Shown here piece by piece: positions 26,033-33,595 of a stretch of DNA of 34,062 bases. The notes under the pieces are model-generated. The model was given only the letters and a program-made list of their open reading frames with translations. It made no database searches and had not been told where the DNA came from. Within the stretch, counting starts at the first letter, position 1; each line of letters starts with the position of its first letter. Source of the stretch: Bacteroidales bacterium (GTDB lineage: Bacteria; Bacteroidota; Bacteroidia; Bacteroidales; UBA932). The DNA is taken from assembly GCA_017556765.1 (NCBI GenBank), contig JAFYME010000057.1, positions 1-34,062 of the forward strand. Reading direction: 5' to 3'. The position numbers and the translations under genes were made by a program.

Positions 26033-26045
26033 ATCTGATTTTATG

Positions 26046-26053
26046 TATCTTTG
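26046..26053 (+). promoter_or_regulatory. -7 element of nhaC
   Basis: TATCTTTG followed by CA, the same decamer as the queH element but on the plus strand, 22 bp before the ATG at 26076. It lies inside the longer open frame that begins at 26043, which argues for the later start. Confidence 0.6.
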
Positions 26054-26075
26054 CACCTTCATAAACGAATTCGAC

Positions 26076-27446
26076 ATGGGCATTATTCCGGACAGATATC
26101 TGAAAGAACTTTTCAAGGGAACGAAACATACAGGAGATCAGGCAAAGCCGATGAGCGGCTGGATGGCACTCAGCCCTCTGGTGGTATTCCTATGCGTATA
26201 TCTTCTGTCTTCAATCATAGCCCAGGACTTTTATAAGATCCCTATTTCAGCGGCTTTCCTCATTGCTTCCGTATATGCGATTGCAATATGCCGCGGCAAG
26301 ACCATGGAGGAAAGAATCGCGACATTCTCCGAGGGAGCCGGCAACAAGAATGTGCTGCTGATGATATGGATATTCGTGCTGGCGGGGGCATTTGCCGCGA
26401 CTGCCAAGGAGATCGGAGCGATCGACGCGACGGTAAACCTCGCCCTCAGGATACTTCCGGGCAAGCTTCTGTATGCAGGCCTTTTCCTTGCCGCATGTTT
26501 CATTTCCATGTCCATCGGAACCAGCGTCGGCACCATAGTAGCCCTCGTGCCCGTAGCAGCCGGAATCGCCGAAGAACTGGCTTTGGGTGGAGCATCAGGA
26601 TCATTCGTAAGCACTCCTTTCATCACGGCTATCATCGTCGGAGGAGCCTTCTTCGGTGACAATCTTTCGTTCATTTCCGACACGACAATCGCTGCCACAA
26701 GGACCCAGGAGTGCTCTATGGCGGACAAATTCAAGGTAAACATCAGGATCGTCGCTCCGGCAGCGCTGATAGTAGCAATCCTCTACGTATTCCTCGGTTC
26801 TTCTGTCACAGTCATGCCTGAAGCCGGCCCGATCGAATGGGTGAAGCTCATTCCATACGTACTTGTGATCGCTCTTGCAATATCCGGAATGGAAGTGACA
26901 GCCGTGCTCACGATAGGCCTTGCCGTCAATGCATTGATAGGATTCTGCGGAGGAGATATGGGATGGACAAGCTTCCTGGAGTCTATCGGAAGCGGAATCA
27001 GCGGCATGGGTGACCTTATCATTGTGACCATGCTGGCGGGAGGAATGTTGGAGCTGATCAAGACAAACGGCGGCCTCGACTTCATCGTTAACGGCCTGAC
27101 ACGACGCATCCATGGCAAAAGAGGAGCGGAACTCAGCATAGCTGCTCTGGTATCGCTTGCCAACCTATGTACGGCAAACAATACGATCGCTATCATCACG
27201 ACAGGCCGCATCGCCAAAGACATCACAAACCAGTTCGGCCTCGACCCACGCAAGACAGCCAGCATCCTGGACACATTCTCATGCCTGATCCAGGGTCTCA
27301 TTCCGTACGGAGCCCAGCTTCTCATGGCCGCAGGACTTGCCGGCATATCGACGATCTCGATAATCAACCACCTCTACTACCCATTCATGATGGGTATCCT
27401 CGCCCTCGGCGCAATCCTTTTCCGCCTTCCACGAAAATATTCATAG
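26076..27446 (+). CDS. nhaC: NhaC-family Na+/H+ antiporter
   Basis: 456 residues, about 11-12 hydrophobic segments across the inner membrane. Family motifs: GAFAATAKEIGAIDATVNLAL, SIGTSVGTIVALVPVAAGI, GGAFFGDNLSFISDTTIAATRTQ (the conserved GDxxSPxSDTT-type site, here with NLSFISD) and LCTANNTIAIITTGRIAKDI. NhaC proteins exchange sodium for protons or organic acids (malate/lactate in some); the exact substrate is not readable here. ATG 26043 lies upstream of the promoter element, so ATG 26076 is chosen. The gene ends in TCA-TAG, and this TAG is also the first part of the left repeat unit of the transposase locus, so the C-terminus may have been set by insertion of that unit. Confidence 0.92.
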   Translation: MGIIPDRYLKELFKGTKHTGDQAKPMSGWMALSPLVVFLCVYLLSSIIAQDFYKIPISAAFLIASVYAIAICRGKTMEERIATFSEGAGNKNVLLMIWIFVLAGAFAATAKEIGAIDATVNLALRILPGKLLYAGLFLAACFISMSIGTSVGTIVALVPVAAGIAEELALGGASGSFVSTPFITAIIVGGAFFGDNLSFISDTTIAATRTQECSMADKFKVNIRIVAPAALIVAILYVFLGSSVTVMPEAGPIEWVKLIPYVLVIALAISGMEVTAVLTIGLAVNALIGFCGGDMGWTSFLESIGSGISGMGDLIIVTMLAGGMLELIKTNGGLDFIVNGLTRRIHGKRGAELSIAALVSLANLCTANNTIAIITTGRIAKDITNQFGLDPRKTASILDTFSCLIQGLIPYGAQLLMAAGLAGISTISIINHLYYPFMMGILALGAILFRLPRKYS

Positions 27447-27597
27447 GCCCGGCATACACCCGATCATATAGCACTGATATTCAACACATTAGATAACATC
27501 CCGTGCCAGACCCCTGCTTTAAAGTATGGGTCTGGCTCGCACGCCTTAGATATATATTGATAATCAAGCGCTTACAAACATGCGCGTGTCAGACCCA
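27444..27597 (+). repeat. REP/BIME-like structured unit, left copy
   Basis: About 154 bp with the same layout as the right copy: 5' edge TAGGCCCGGCATAC, an AT-rich spacer, a hairpin GCCAGACCC (27505-27513), 14-nt loop CTGCTTTAAAGTAT (27514-27527), GGGTCTGGC (27528-27536), a second spacer with TTGATAATCAA, and the 3' edge GTGTCAGACCC (27586-27596). The 3'-edge CAGACCC can also pair with the hairpin's GGGTCTG, so two folds exclude each other. The 27598-27714 stretch up to the transposase holds only a purine-rich leader (GAGAGGGAGATAGAGGAGAAGG) region and an imperfect -7 element, AATCTTTG. Confidence 0.8.
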
Positions 27598-27714
27598 AAT
27601 GATAATTGCAATTCTCAAATAATATATCAATCTTTGCATCAGTCATTTCCTGATTCTCATGTATGTCAGAGAGAGGGAGATAGAGGAGAAGGATAAAGTT
27701 AAAAATGATATATT

Positions 27715-28590
27715 ATGAGAAAGCGTGGGTTCTATCACCTGTTCTCTGACGGATTCCGTACAGATGTTCTTTTTGAGGACAAACAGGCATTCATAGCAGG
27801 CATGAATATAATTGCATTATGTTTCCTGAAATGCAACATTGCCATACCGGCATTCATCCTTATGGACAATCATGTACACTTCATTCTTTATTGTACATAT
27901 GAGGAGTGCTGCAGATTCAGAGACAAGTTCATTCATCGTTACGGATTATGGCATTCCAACAGGTACTCCCGCAAACCCCTTGAAACGATTGACTTCGATA
28001 TCAAGCTTATGGAGGAAGAGAGATACATCCTCAACTCAATAGCTTATGCCCTCCGAAACAGCATAGCTGCCGGATACTGTTTCTGCGCAGATGATTATCC
28101 GTGGTCCTCAGGAGGATTGTACTTCCGTATGCCTGACAAGATGGCTGCGTCAACTGCGGGATGGAATAAAATTTCCGATCTGACAGCACGGGAAATCCGT
28201 TGCTTATTCCACACACATGAAAACTTACCCAAAGACTGGGTAATCACTCCGGAAGGATTTATCTGGCCAGGAAACTACGTAGACTTTCATCTGGCCGAAA
28301 GCCTGTACCGAACTCCTAAAAGCTTCGCATTCTTCATGGGCCAAAGCAAAGAGGAAGAAATCAATAAAAGCTTGGGAATATGTGAATCCGTCGCCCTCCC
28401 TGACATGGAAATCCGAGAGAAAGCAGTCATGAATTGCATGAGAATATTCGGCATCGGGAATCTCAGAAGGCTGGACGTTCCCCAACGCATACGGCTTGGG
28501 AAAGTTCTTCGACGAGAATACCGATGCTCCGCCAAACAGATTGCACGCACAATCCACCTTGACCCGAAATATATAAAGGAGCTGATTTAG
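27715..28590 (+). CDS. REP-associated tyrosine transposase (RAYT, Y1/HUH family)
   Basis: 291 residues. The HUH metal site is MDNHVHFIL (His53, His55). The likely catalytic tyrosine is Tyr111 in IAYALRNSIAAGY; the family usually has NP where this protein has Asn115-Ser116. The typical YPWSS follows (DDYPWSSGGLYF). The C-terminal ~60 residues form a helix-turn-helix (RIRLGKVLRREYRCSAKQIARTIHLDPKYIKELI region), as in several RAYT groups. RAYTs nick and join single-stranded REP hairpins and usually occur as one copy flanked by REPs. Here matching ~154-bp units flank the gene, and the stop codon TAG is the start of the right unit. No TnpB or cargo gene is present, which argues against IS200/IS605. 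The gene looks intact. Activity is not known. Confidence 0.88.
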   Translation: MRKRGFYHLFSDGFRTDVLFEDKQAFIAGMNIIALCFLKCNIAIPAFILMDNHVHFILYCTYEECCRFRDKFIHRYGLWHSNRYSRKPLETIDFDIKLMEEERYILNSIAYALRNSIAAGYCFCADDYPWSSGGLYFRMPDKMAASTAGWNKISDLTAREIRCLFHTHENLPKDWVITPEGFIWPGNYVDFHLAESLYRTPKSFAFFMGQSKEEEINKSLGICESVALPDMEIREKAVMNCMRIFGIGNLRRLDVPQRIRLGKVLRREYRCSAKQIARTIHLDPKYIKELI

Positions 28591-28742
28591 GCCCGGCACA
28601 CGTCACGTCATACATCACTGATTATCAATCAATTAAGTTAGAGCGACGTGTCAGGCCCCTGCTTTAAAGTATGGGCCTGACACGGGCAAAACGCCTAAAT
28701 AATTTATAATCAAATCGTTATGATCAGAGGAGTGTCAAACCT
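28588..28742 (+). repeat. REP/BIME-like structured unit, right copy
   Basis: About 155 bp: 5' edge TAGGCCCGGCACAC, spacer, hairpin CGTGTCAGGCCC (28647-28658), loop CTGCTTTAAAGTAT identical to the left copy (28659-28672), GGGCCTGACACG (28673-28684), spacer with TTATAATCAA, 3' edge GTGTCAAACCT (28732-28742). Two base pairs in the stem differ from the left copy on both sides, keeping pairing (C-G to T-A, A-T to G-C). It reaches to 6 bp from the feoB stop and could act as its transcript end, although no T-run is present on that strand. Confidence 0.82.
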
Positions 28743-28748
28743 ACCACA

Positions 28749-31172
28749 TCATAAGAATAATGAAGCCAGGCGGAAGGTGATGAAAGCTGCGATCCAGGCA
28801 AGGAAGATTGTGTAGACGGCCGTGATGATGGCCCATTTCCAGCCTCCGCCTTCGTTCTTGATGGCGACAAATGTGGCTATGCATGGGAAGTAGAGCAGGA
28901 TGAAGACCATGTATGCCAGGGCAGCGGCAGGGGTCACCGAGCGGACAAGGGCACGCTGGAGGCGGGTTTCGCCTGACGGAGCCGACGGAGATTCCTCGAC
29001 CTCACCAGACATGGCAGAGGAGCCTGACGCTACCGGTGTCTCATCCACATACATCACTCCCAATGTGCTGACTACCAATTCCTTTGCACCTACTCCCGCA
29101 ACGATGCCGACTCCCATACGCCAGTCAAAACCAAGCGGCTCAAGAACCGGCTCCATGGCCTTTCCGACATATCCGATGAATGAATGTTCCTGCTGTTCCT
29201 TTACGGAATCATATGCATCATGGTTCGGGAAATAACCGAGGAACCATATGGCCATAGAGCAGACAAGGATGATTCCGCTCATCTTCTGGAGATACTGACG
29301 GCCCTTTTCCCATGTATGTCTGAAAACTGATTTTGCGGTAGGGACACGGTATGGAGGCAGCTCCATCACGAAAGGAAGGTCGTCCTCCTTGAAGAAGAAG
29401 CTCATGACCTTTGCAGCGATCACCGCCAGGATGATGCCCAATGCATAGAGTCCCAGTACTACAAGGCCGGCATTGCGAGGGAAGAAAGCTCCGGCGATAA
29501 GCACGTATACCGGCATTCGTCCCGCGCATGACATCAATGGGATGATCAGCATCGTAATGAGCCTGCTCTTCCTGTTCTCTATCGTTCTGGTCGCCATTAT
29601 AGCAGGTACATTACAGCCGAATCCCATGACCATAGGGATGAAAGACTTGCCATGAAGACCTATCTTATGCATGAGTTTGTCCATGATGAAGGCTGCGCGA
29701 GCCATGTATCCGGAATCTTCCAGAAGCGATATGAACAGATAGAGTATCAATATGTTAGGCAGAAAGACCAGCACGCTTCCGACACCGCCTATGATACCGT
29801 CGACAACCAGATCCTTCAGCCAGCCGTCATTCATTGTCGAAGCCACGAATGCTCCGACCTGCTCCACGAGCCACTCGATCCACTGCATCGGATACTCTCC
29901 GAAAAGGAAGGTCGACTGGAATACCACATACAGAAGGAAGAAAAAGATCGGGAATGCCAGCCACTTGTTGGTTATCACAGCATCCAGCTTGTCAGTCAAT
30001 GTATTCCTGCGTTTCTTTCCCTTGTATGGTTCATATGTCTCAGCCAATGCGCCCTGCACAAAGGCGTACTTTGCGTCCACCAGAGCTGATTCCAGACCGG
30101 ACTTCAGAAGACTTTCTATCCTTTTGTGCTCTTCAAAGCGGGCCGCTATGATCTCGTCTCTGTTCGGCAGTGCCTCCACGACCTTGTCGATCTCCTTATC
30201 GTTTTCAAGATACTTGATCGCAAGATAACGTGTAGAATACTTATATCTGATGTCCGTATTCTTCTGAAGAAGAGTCTTTATGCGGTCGATGCTATGCTCC
30301 AGCTCTGCACCATGATTTATATGTATGTGTCGGGCCAGATGCGGGTCACTCTTCTCATAGATCTGCACCACAGTATCGAAAAGTTCGTCAATTCCCTTGC
30401 CCGTACGACTGACAGTAGGCACTACCGGCATACCGAGAAGGTAGCCTAACTGCTTGATGTCCAGCCTGTCACCTTTAGCCTGAAGCTCATCATACATATT
30501 CAGAGCCATCACGACACGAAGGTTCATGTCGATCAGCTGAGTCGTAAGATACAGGTTTCTCTGAAGGTTTGATGCGTCAACGACATTGACCACAACATCC
30601 GGCATATCTTCGACGAGATTCTTCCTGACGTAAAGTTCCTCAGGGCTGTATGCCGACAATGAATATGTACCCGGAAGATCCACAAGAAGGAACTTATAGC
30701 CTCCATGTTCGAATGTGCCTTCCTTCGCATCCACTGTCACACCGCTGTAGTTGCCCACATGTTCATGGCTGCCGGAGGCTATGTTGAAAAGAGATGTCTT
30801 TCCGCAGTTCGGATTACCGACCAAGGCTACCTTGATGACCTTTCTCCTGGCTTCCGCCAATGTAGTCATCTCTCTCTCGAGGTACGCCTCGCCCTTGGCG
30901 TCCAAAGCCGGCAGGGCCTCCCTTTCGGAAAGCATCTGCTTCGCCTCGGTCTCACTGATGACCTCGATCTTTGAGGCTTCCTCGCGACGCAGCGATATCT
31001 TATATCCTATTATTTCATATTCAATAGGGTCTCTGAGAGGGGCGTTAAGGATCACCTTGACCTTGTTGCCCTTCACAAATCCCATCTCTATTATTCTTTT
31101 ACGAAAGCTTCCGTGGCCGTTGACCTTGACGATCACGGCACGTTCCCCCGTCTTCAATTCCGACAGTTTCAT
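28749..31172 (-). CDS. feoB: FeoA-FeoB fusion, ferrous iron transporter
   Basis: 807 residues. Residues 1-75 are a FeoA (SH3-like) domain (MKLSELKTGERAVIVKVNGH, RIIEMGFVKGNKVKVI); a linker follows; the GTPase begins at ~112 with G1 GNPNCGKTS (119-127), VGNYSGVTVDAKEG as the G2 region, G3 DLPGTYSLS, and G4 LNMYDE. From ~390 on there are two gate-type membrane regions (MGFGCNVPAIMATRTIE, LIIPLMSCAGRMPVYVLIAGAFF and the matching later half). FeoB imports Fe2+ across the inner membrane; fusion of FeoA to FeoB is usual in Bacteroidetes. Start ATG 31172 follows a TAnnTTTG element. Expression is usually iron-regulated, but I see no Fur box that I would claim. Confidence 0.97.
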   Translation of the reverse strand: MKLSELKTGERAVIVKVNGHGSFRKRIIEMGFVKGNKVKVILNAPLRDPIEYEIIGYKISLRREEASKIEVISETEAKQMLSEREALPALDAKGEAYLEREMTTLAEARRKVIKVALVGNPNCGKTSLFNIASGSHEHVGNYSGVTVDAKEGTFEHGGYKFLLVDLPGTYSLSAYSPEELYVRKNLVEDMPDVVVNVVDASNLQRNLYLTTQLIDMNLRVVMALNMYDELQAKGDRLDIKQLGYLLGMPVVPTVSRTGKGIDELFDTVVQIYEKSDPHLARHIHINHGAELEHSIDRIKTLLQKNTDIRYKYSTRYLAIKYLENDKEIDKVVEALPNRDEIIAARFEEHKRIESLLKSGLESALVDAKYAFVQGALAETYEPYKGKKRRNTLTDKLDAVITNKWLAFPIFFFLLYVVFQSTFLFGEYPMQWIEWLVEQVGAFVASTMNDGWLKDLVVDGIIGGVGSVLVFLPNILILYLFISLLEDSGYMARAAFIMDKLMHKIGLHGKSFIPMVMGFGCNVPAIMATRTIENRKSRLITMLIIPLMSCAGRMPVYVLIAGAFFPRNAGLVVLGLYALGIILAVIAAKVMSFFFKEDDLPFVMELPPYRVPTAKSVFRHTWEKGRQYLQKMSGIILVCSMAIWFLGYFPNHDAYDSVKEQQEHSFIGYVGKAMEPVLEPLGFDWRMGVGIVAGVGAKELVVSTLGVMYVDETPVASGSSAMSGEVEESPSAPSGETRLQRALVRSVTPAAALAYMVFILLYFPCIATFVAIKNEGGGWKWAIITAVYTIFLAWIAAFITFRLASLFL

Positions 31173-33507: not shown

Positions 33508-33513
33508 CTTTGT

Positions 33514-33595
33514 GCGGTGGGCGAGACTCGAACTCGCACAGGATTACTCCCACTACCCCCTCAAAGTAGCGTGTCTACCATTTCACCACCACCGC
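33514..33595 (-). tRNA. tRNA-Leu (anticodon GAG)
   Basis: 82 nt without an encoded CCA. Acceptor GCGGTGG pairs with CCACCGC; the D arm has AATGGTAGAC; the anticodon stem CTACT/GGTAG encloses the loop TTGAGGG, giving anticodon GAG (plus-strand CTC at 33560-33562); a long class II variable arm (GGGAGTAATCC region) follows; the T arm is GCGAG-TTCGAGT-CTCGC. The long variable arm and the anticodon both say leucine (reads CUC and CUU). It has its own consensus promoter and terminator. Confidence 0.95.

Follow-up and report, generated by a model that had tools for sequence, protein, structure and literature searches.

What use a RAYT is to the cell, and how RAYTs keep pace with their repeats, are standing questions, and both are raised by a locus on a Bacteroidales contig (JAFYME010000057.1, assembly GCA_017556765.1) in which a gene for a RAYT-like HUH/Y1 protein lies between two repeat units of about 154 bp and four arms each. 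What, then, are this gene and its two units to each other? The whole stretch analyzed here, referred to as the window, comprises 34,062 nt, and coordinates without a further label are positions in it (other genomes are labeled G and loci L). We consider it quite probable that the locus represents a domesticated, vertically inherited RAYT-type HUH/Y1 single-stranded DNA (ssDNA) nuclease with its own four-arm units, i.e., a REPtron/TIRtron-like locus, and that it belongs to a large radiation of such loci in Candidatus Cryptobacteroides, which is very probably the host genus. Such a radiation makes one genus the supplier of many gene-repeat pairs with different arms, and thus natural material to map recognition, and across five species it offers a gene that stayed fixed at one site while the middle of the repeat stem changed with pairing kept.

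A RAYT-like gene and its four-arm units

The gene (27715..28590, forward strand, as are all features of the two units below) encodes a protein of 291 amino acids (P0001) with the residues HVH at positions 53-55, a tyrosine at position 111, and a C-terminal tail in which Q275 and R278 are conserved at 90% or more in a 60-member alignment. H53, H55, and Y111 were identical in 86 of 86 aligned proteins (P0001 included) and in all 60 rows of a second alignment, and by sequence this family has the HUH motif and the one putative catalytic tyrosine expected of a Y1 transposase core. The NCBIfam RAYT model NF047646 was matched weakly by P0001 itself and, at E<=0.01, by 52 of the 60 aligned family members, which bears out the initial annotation of the gene as a RAYT. 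In addition, the Pfam model Y1_Tnp was matched by 44 of the 60 members at E<=0.1, and the only match of the family profile in the PDB up to E=0.1 was E. coli TnpAREP (4er8, E=0.029). RAYTs have been described as domesticated bacterial transposases (PMC8266576).

Each unit consists of arm 1, spacer, arm 2, 14-nt loop, arm 3, spacer, and arm 4, with the orientation of the arms alternating, so that the layout first noticed on both flanks is present as described. The upstream unit (27444..27596; direct repeats D1 and D2, inverted repeat I2, and alignment with orthologues) begins with arm 1 (GGCCCGGCATAC, 27446..27457, recognized from the sequence and D1), followed by the spacer motif YTNNNNNNCARNNNNTTA of its first half (27474..27491), the central hairpin (27502..27539, with arm 2 at 27502-27513, the loop CTGCTTTAAAGTAT at 27514-27527, and arm 3 at 27528-27539; 11 of 12 pairs formed), the spacer motif of its second half (27557..27574), and arm 4 (GTGTCAGACCC, 27586..27596). 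The downstream unit (28588..28741; repeat search and alignment with orthologues) repeats this order with arm 1 (GGCCCGGCACAC, 28590..28601, repeat search), a first spacer motif (28618..28635), a central hairpin (28647..28684; stem 28647-28658/28673-28684, 12 of 12 pairs) whose loop (28659-28672) is identical to the upstream one, a second spacer motif (28703..28720), and arm 4 (GTGTCAAACC, 28732..28741). Resemblance to the other arms is weak for the first edge arm (GGCCCGGCAyAC), which a 10-mer search allowing one mismatch failed to pick up. A TAG stop codon marks the start of both units: that of the antiporter gene for the upstream unit and that of the RAYT gene for the downstream one.

As had been stated at the outset, the 12-bp stems of the two hairpins differ at two pairs, each altered on both sides so that pairing is kept, and the loops are the same; besides these, the upstream stem has one T-T mismatch at a position that holds a T-A pair downstream. 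With up to two mismatches allowed, the loop pattern occurred twice in the window, both times exactly, versus 0.13 expected (1 of 100 shuffles had two). The 18-nt motif YTNNNNNNCARNNNNTTA was present in every spacer in a single orientation (starts 27474, 27557, 28618, and 28703); it had nine matches in the window including these four, compared with a shuffle mean of 3.2, and inspection by eye placed it in direct orientation in all 12 spacers of a set of six units, the pattern having been derived from these very sequences. Aligning the whole spacers half against half scored better in direct orientation for four of the six units and in inverted orientation for two, so that the direct orientation of the halves is read from the motif. 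Folding as ssDNA predicted the central hairpin in both units on both strands, with z-scores of -2.3 and -3.5 (forward strand) and -1.9 and -2.8 (reverse strand), and the downstream unit was also predicted to be foldable as one long hairpin. Between the upstream unit and the start of the RAYT gene, positions 27600-27714 appear by eye to be well conserved in the orthologues and hold an AT-rich block and a purine-rich leader; perhaps these are the promoter and leader of the gene.

The locus lies between a Na+/H+ antiporter family gene (26043..27446, forward strand; PF03553) on its left and a FeoA-FeoB ferrous iron transporter gene (28749..31172, reverse strand; PF02421 and PF04023) on its right, both of which are syntenic. 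A RAYT gene with its upstream unit was found at this antiporter/FeoB site in five species (the window, G021 with locus L222, G025 with L224, and the loci L223 and L225), the orthologues being 68-72% identical to P0001 at the amino acid level; L223 and L224 hardly differ from each other, and the match in L225 spans 191 amino acids only. Between the RAYT gene and FeoB, L223 and L224 contain about 1.7 kb with two further open frames. The L225 orthologue (L225:10001-10832), from a goat-caecum metagenome-assembled genome (MAG), reaches a stop only about 100 amino acids after the start codon, owing to gene decay or an assembly error.

The stems at this fixed site read GTGYCAGRCCC in the window, GTGGAAGACCC in G021, GTGTTTAACCC in G025 and L223, and another sequence in L225; across these lineages the outer GTG and the inner C are kept and the middle varies with pairing retained. 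Where both units are present (the window and G021), the upstream and downstream arms are closely similar within each locus. In a set of six hairpins (two from the window, two from G021, one from G025, and one degenerate solo hairpin of the window's genome at C43:49574-49611), 91.7% of cells were paired, five pairs were changed on both sides, and covariation reached 0.461 versus 0.164 in shuffles. The pairing of the stems is therefore under selection, as the initial annotation had proposed; its extension of this selection to the whole loop was not supported, since the six hairpins share only the central TTTAAA and one further A.

Comparison of this site among genomes also bears on an ordinary insertion sequence (IS) of the IS200/IS605 type, in which the units would be the two ends, left and right, of a 1.3-kb stretch that moves as a whole. 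Such an element would likewise place an HUH/Y1 protein between hairpin ends, and sites without the module do exist: in G062 the antiporter and FeoB genes are about 60 nt apart with no RAYT between the aligned ends, and in G089 and G007 no RAYT match lies within 1.5 kb of the antiporter. Yet the gene occupies one syntenic position in five species, and the available 58% of its genome contains no near-identical second copy, the closest full-length paralogue being 36% identical and a 75-amino-acid piece at a contig end 45%. Moreover, each flank is a complete four-arm unit, and gene-free units exist in two relatives, G104 and G016. A gene moving together with both ends and leaving near-identical copies, as in IS200/IS605 elements, was thus not what we found, and we regard this explanation as very unlikely. 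In a further species (G061), the antiporter-FeoB gap holds no RAYT match and is occupied by an unrelated solo array with a 51-bp step (L329:2836-3050).

Relatives and their arms across the genus

In the first genome set, relatives of P0001 were present in 33 of 61 genomes, all of one genus (33 of its 37), and in none of 24 genomes from other families, and a profile search found at least one relative in 168 of 200 genomes of the genus, with at least 12 divergent genes in some of them. No relative was found in the phage and plasmid collections at E<=1e-5. Outside the genus, relatives also occur in Coprenecus, Merdivivens, Muribaculum sp. An289, and a contig filed under a Spirochaetales MAG; few of these loci (L246, L251-L273) have arms on both sides.

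Arms at these relatives were sought with one script, which looked on either side of the gene for the same 10-mer (one mismatch allowed) with alternating orientation. Both-sided arms were detected at 40 of 88 loci in the first set, for which one shuffle per locus gave 0 of 88 (two of 90 loci are missing, L054 excluded for its short flank and L078 dropped earlier for lack of a tblastn match), at 28 of 60 held-out loci from other genomes (about 100 had been planned; 1 of 180 shuffles), and at 9 of 38 further loci without shuffle control (49 of 78 used, the other 29 being partial or distant matches, minus 11 duplicates). Combined, 77 of 186 RAYT loci were positive, and the arm sequence varied from RAYT gene to RAYT gene. 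Owing to the divergence of its upstream third arm, the window's own locus was scored as having arms on one side. A different repeat style was seen downstream of the RAYT in L018, where the 10-mer CGAAACCCTG occurs 14 times in a single orientation, mostly 17 bp apart.

Antiporter genes served as a control: among 24 of them without an adjoining RAYT, none showed both-sided arms (29 loci, less L302 and L307, which have a RAYT beside them, and short ones). This result speaks to the possibility that the units are RNA or DNA structures serving the neighboring genes, such as terminators or stabilizers of mRNA 3' ends, with an incidental link to the RAYT. It would account for units that start at stop codons next to a convergent FeoB gene and for the conserved pairing, and the terminator scan, which found none at the units, covers loops of 3-8 nt and is blind to a hairpin with a 14-nt loop. 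By inspection, however, no T run follows either stem, there was no Rfam match at gathering thresholds, and the arms track the individual RAYT and not the neighbor genes, being absent on both sides of all RAYT-less antiporter genes of the control; we therefore think that such a role is unlikely to explain the units.

Dispersed units and the case for an enzyme acting on them

Units away from a RAYT gene were found in two relatives. In G104 (96% complete), the arm of the RAYT in L128 (GTAGACGGTCCA) had 31 exact copies and, within one mismatch, 53 matches versus 29 for the reversed control; four other genomes contained 0, 0, 0, and 1 exact copies (G013 and G075, without a RAYT match, and G016 and G120, with other RAYTs). 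Ten gene-free solo units and the two beside the RAYT were compared, and each of the 12 consists of four arms, no more and no fewer (up to two mismatches), with identical spacing but different flanks, a count that leaves out ten single one-mismatch matches. The two hairpins of the 12 units had 94.7% paired cells, nine pairs changed on both sides, and variable 5-nt loops, and by inspection GTAG lies inside the stem and not at its foot. That the four-arm unit, recognized initially from the two copies in the window, is the repeated entity is thus supported in a relative. In G016 (98% complete, eight contigs), the arm of the RAYT in L072 had 140 matches versus 8 in the control, and among the matches listed, four or more arms follow one another at 16 of 18 sites distant from the RAYT, in most cases at a 74-bp step (runs were counted only from four arms on; L212 and L220 have none). 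A second class of 74-bp ladders in G016 (L203, L208-L211, L213, L215, L216, L218, and L219) adjoins a head of about 55 bp that is conserved (mostly GGACAATTGACACGCCCTCGC...) and, in part, a conserved tail, whereas the ladders beside the RAYT have unrelated flanks.

Passive tandem or inverted duplication, through replication slippage or recombination, could in principle make and spread arms as well, in which case the RAYT would be a bystander in repeat-rich gaps. Long ladders of near-constant step at some loci (L072 and L221) would suit this process, as would the more than half of RAYT loci without detectable both-sided arms. Against it, the solo units of G104 are uniformly four-armed at ten separate sites with different flanks, and exact arm copies are, among the genomes tested, nearly confined to the genome with that RAYT, which leaves duplication alone a very improbable account.

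For the domesticated RAYT-type nuclease that we prefer, we infer that each RAYT would recognize the arms of its own repeat when these are single-stranded and folded, as might happen on the lagging strand, and would cut and rejoin at these arms, by which four-arm units may be copied or moved elsewhere while the gene stays put. Folding of the units in the cell, cleavage, strand transfer, and mobilization by the enzyme would all be parts of this process. E. coli TnpAREP processes its cognate single-stranded REPs in vitro, and co-evolution of enzyme and repeat has been reported for two TnpAREP groups (PMC8266576); a gene that is inherited vertically at one site, with its arms changing in concert, is consistent with such co-evolution.

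Several observations weigh against this reading. P0001 itself scored 22.6 bits with NF047646, for which the cut-off is 80, and had no Pfam match. No unit was found within the 260-320 nt examined after the RAYT gene in G025 and L223, and 109 of the 186 RAYT loci were without both-sided arms by our script. Dispersal, tested in four genomes (the window's own, G000, as well as G021, G104, and G016), was seen in the latter two: the window's arm had 131 matches in its own genome versus 154 for the reversed control, and the arm of the G021 orthologue had 50 matches in G021 versus 71, i.e., no excess in either case. BLAST of the 155-bp unit against 200 genomes gave a convincing match only at the window itself, in a search insensitive enough to miss the known units of orthologues as well. 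The G016 arm had 5, 21, 25, 7, and 25 matches in five other genomes versus 2, 8, 9, 2, and 6 in the control, with only 0-2 exact matches each; its pattern is somewhat common in general. No excision or insertion event was observed in the genomes compared, and the named genomes are nearly all MAGs, the window's being incomplete as given above.

Dispersed copies in the host genome, which the initial annotation led one to look for, did not turn up in arm, loop, or whole-unit searches; the degenerate hairpin included in the covariation set is the only recognizable remnant of a unit away from the gene. Within an otherwise active-looking family, the window's system is thus a quiet, low-copy member. 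Candidates set aside in these searches were BLAST matches of 19-29 bp to the unit in other genomes, taken as chance; one of three exact sites of the loop pattern in G000, the one outside the window (C48), which has no stem, lies inside a 620-amino-acid open frame, and was judged to be chance; and exact arm matches elsewhere in G000 (L154-L157 and L162), which have no oppositely oriented arm at about 26 bp.

Known systems and the spacing of the arms

RAYT-REP systems are known in Gammaproteobacteria, as first noted for this locus, but they are not limited to this class: RAYTs flanked by terminal inverted repeats (TIRs), known as TIRtrons, have been described, some of them in dimers or clusters (Di Nocera et al. 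2013, PMC3733652), as have Bacteroidetes TnpAY1 genes of subclass 2.6 with atypical flanking structures (PMC6006769). With TIRtrons (TIRYTs) and subclass 2.1, for whose genes Quentin et al. 2018 report no REP-like sequences (PMC6006769), our family shares a RAYT-type Y1 gene with a C-terminal extension and flanking inverted repeats instead of GTAG REPs, and the repeats of that group may likewise be self-complementary, dimeric, or clustered and form repeat families in some genomes (PMC3733652, PMC6006769). The key motif NHVH, given there as NHVH or NH[YF]H, was found here too, but at the tyrosine P0001 has YALRNS and the family consensus has Y-x-x-R-N-P (Y-x-x-R-N-x overall), compared with YIELNP or Y[IV]HLNP (PMC6006769). 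By inspection no arm fits GGGGWSAS, a motif that only some TIRs share in that paper. That group has a C-terminal helix-turn-helix (Bac_DnaA_C, HTH_23, or HTH_28); here the C-terminal tail is conserved, and HTH_23 matched 1 of 60 members at E=0.03. Regular four-arm units or fixed-step ladders, with at least 12 divergent genes per genome in some cases, further set our family apart.

With REPtrons and their REPINs or BIMEs in E. coli and Pseudomonas, the shared features are one gene per repeat family, flanking repeats of its own, dispersed solo repeats, and alternating palindromic arms (PMC3116915, PMC8266576, PMC6006769). A flanking repeat of the gene's own is present at the window, and dispersal of the RAYT/TnpAREP type is seen in G104 and G016 but not in the window's genome or G021. 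In contrast to REPtrons, GT[AG]G is absent from the foot of the hairpins of the window and its orthologues (inspection), and the spacer motif points the same way in both halves of the window units, whereas among 430 P. fluorescens doublets 93% are inverted REP pairs (PMC3116915, PMC8266576, PMC6006769). Subclass 2.6 of TnpAY1 resembles our family in its Bacteroidetes hosts, its atypical secondary structures beside the gene, and copies elsewhere in the genome, but has a median length of 179 amino acids and the motif YIH[QN]NP, compared with 291 amino acids, a C-terminal extension, and another motif here (PMC6006769). In tyrosine motif, arms, and length taken together, our family is a full fit to none of the TnpAY1 subclasses in the tabulation of PMC6006769, and in a literature search on TIRYT, TIRtron, REPtron, and TnpAREP, on Cryptobacteroides repeats, and on helical spacing, with subscription journals mostly outside its reach, no title or abstract opening described this system. 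The best reading of these comparisons is a genus-wide radiation of REPtron/TIRtron-like enzyme-repeat pairs.

A further property of these repeats is their step, i.e., the distance between like-oriented arms, which we compared over the 67 loci (39 + 25 + 3) that show two or more alternations (L010 had a tied list of 73, 72, 20, and 52 and was set to 73). The steps fell at 42 bp (one locus), 50-53 bp (37), 61-62 bp (three), 71-74 bp (18), 83-86 bp (six), and 88 bp (two), that of the window being 83-84 bp. In the first set, the vector strength at 10.5 bp was 0.88, and after protein clustering (17-32 cluster values depending on the threshold) it was 0.73-0.81; in the two clusterings compared with null models, none of 40,000 smoothed-null draws and no more than 1 of 40,000 uniform draws attained the observed value (p<1e-4). 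None of 25 held-out values fell within gaps predicted beforehand (55-60, 64-70, and 76-81 bp), and genes related in the tree differ by about one turn: 73 bp in L010 and L034 versus 61-62 bp in L102, L110, and L113, and 74 bp in L072 versus 85 bp in L080. Points against phasing are that the held-out set alone fits best, among the values tested, at 9.5 bp (0.845) and not at 10.5 bp (0.773), that the 88-bp pair (L109 and L112) is out of phase, that p is about 0.08 over six distinct step classes, and that the clusters share ancestry.

A repeat step near whole helical turns is, on these data, likely enough to test. A near-quantized step predicts binding to the duplex, a prediction that a purely single-strand model does not make. 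As a tentative and rather doubtful extension, we hypothesize that the step across the Cryptobacteroides radiation may be set to whole helix turns (about 4-8), with the arms, in the duplex, presented on a single face of the helix and read there, possibly by the RAYT's C-terminal domain, ahead of or alongside the known single-strand hairpin step. Among related RAYTs, the step would then move by roughly one turn (73 to 62 bp, 74 to 85 bp), with arm sequences free to change, and the four-arm units dispersed in the genomes would amount to a genus-specific, self-renewing code of protein-repeat pairs. Beyond these features, the window holds a tRNA-Leu (gag) gene at 33512-33595 on the reverse strand.

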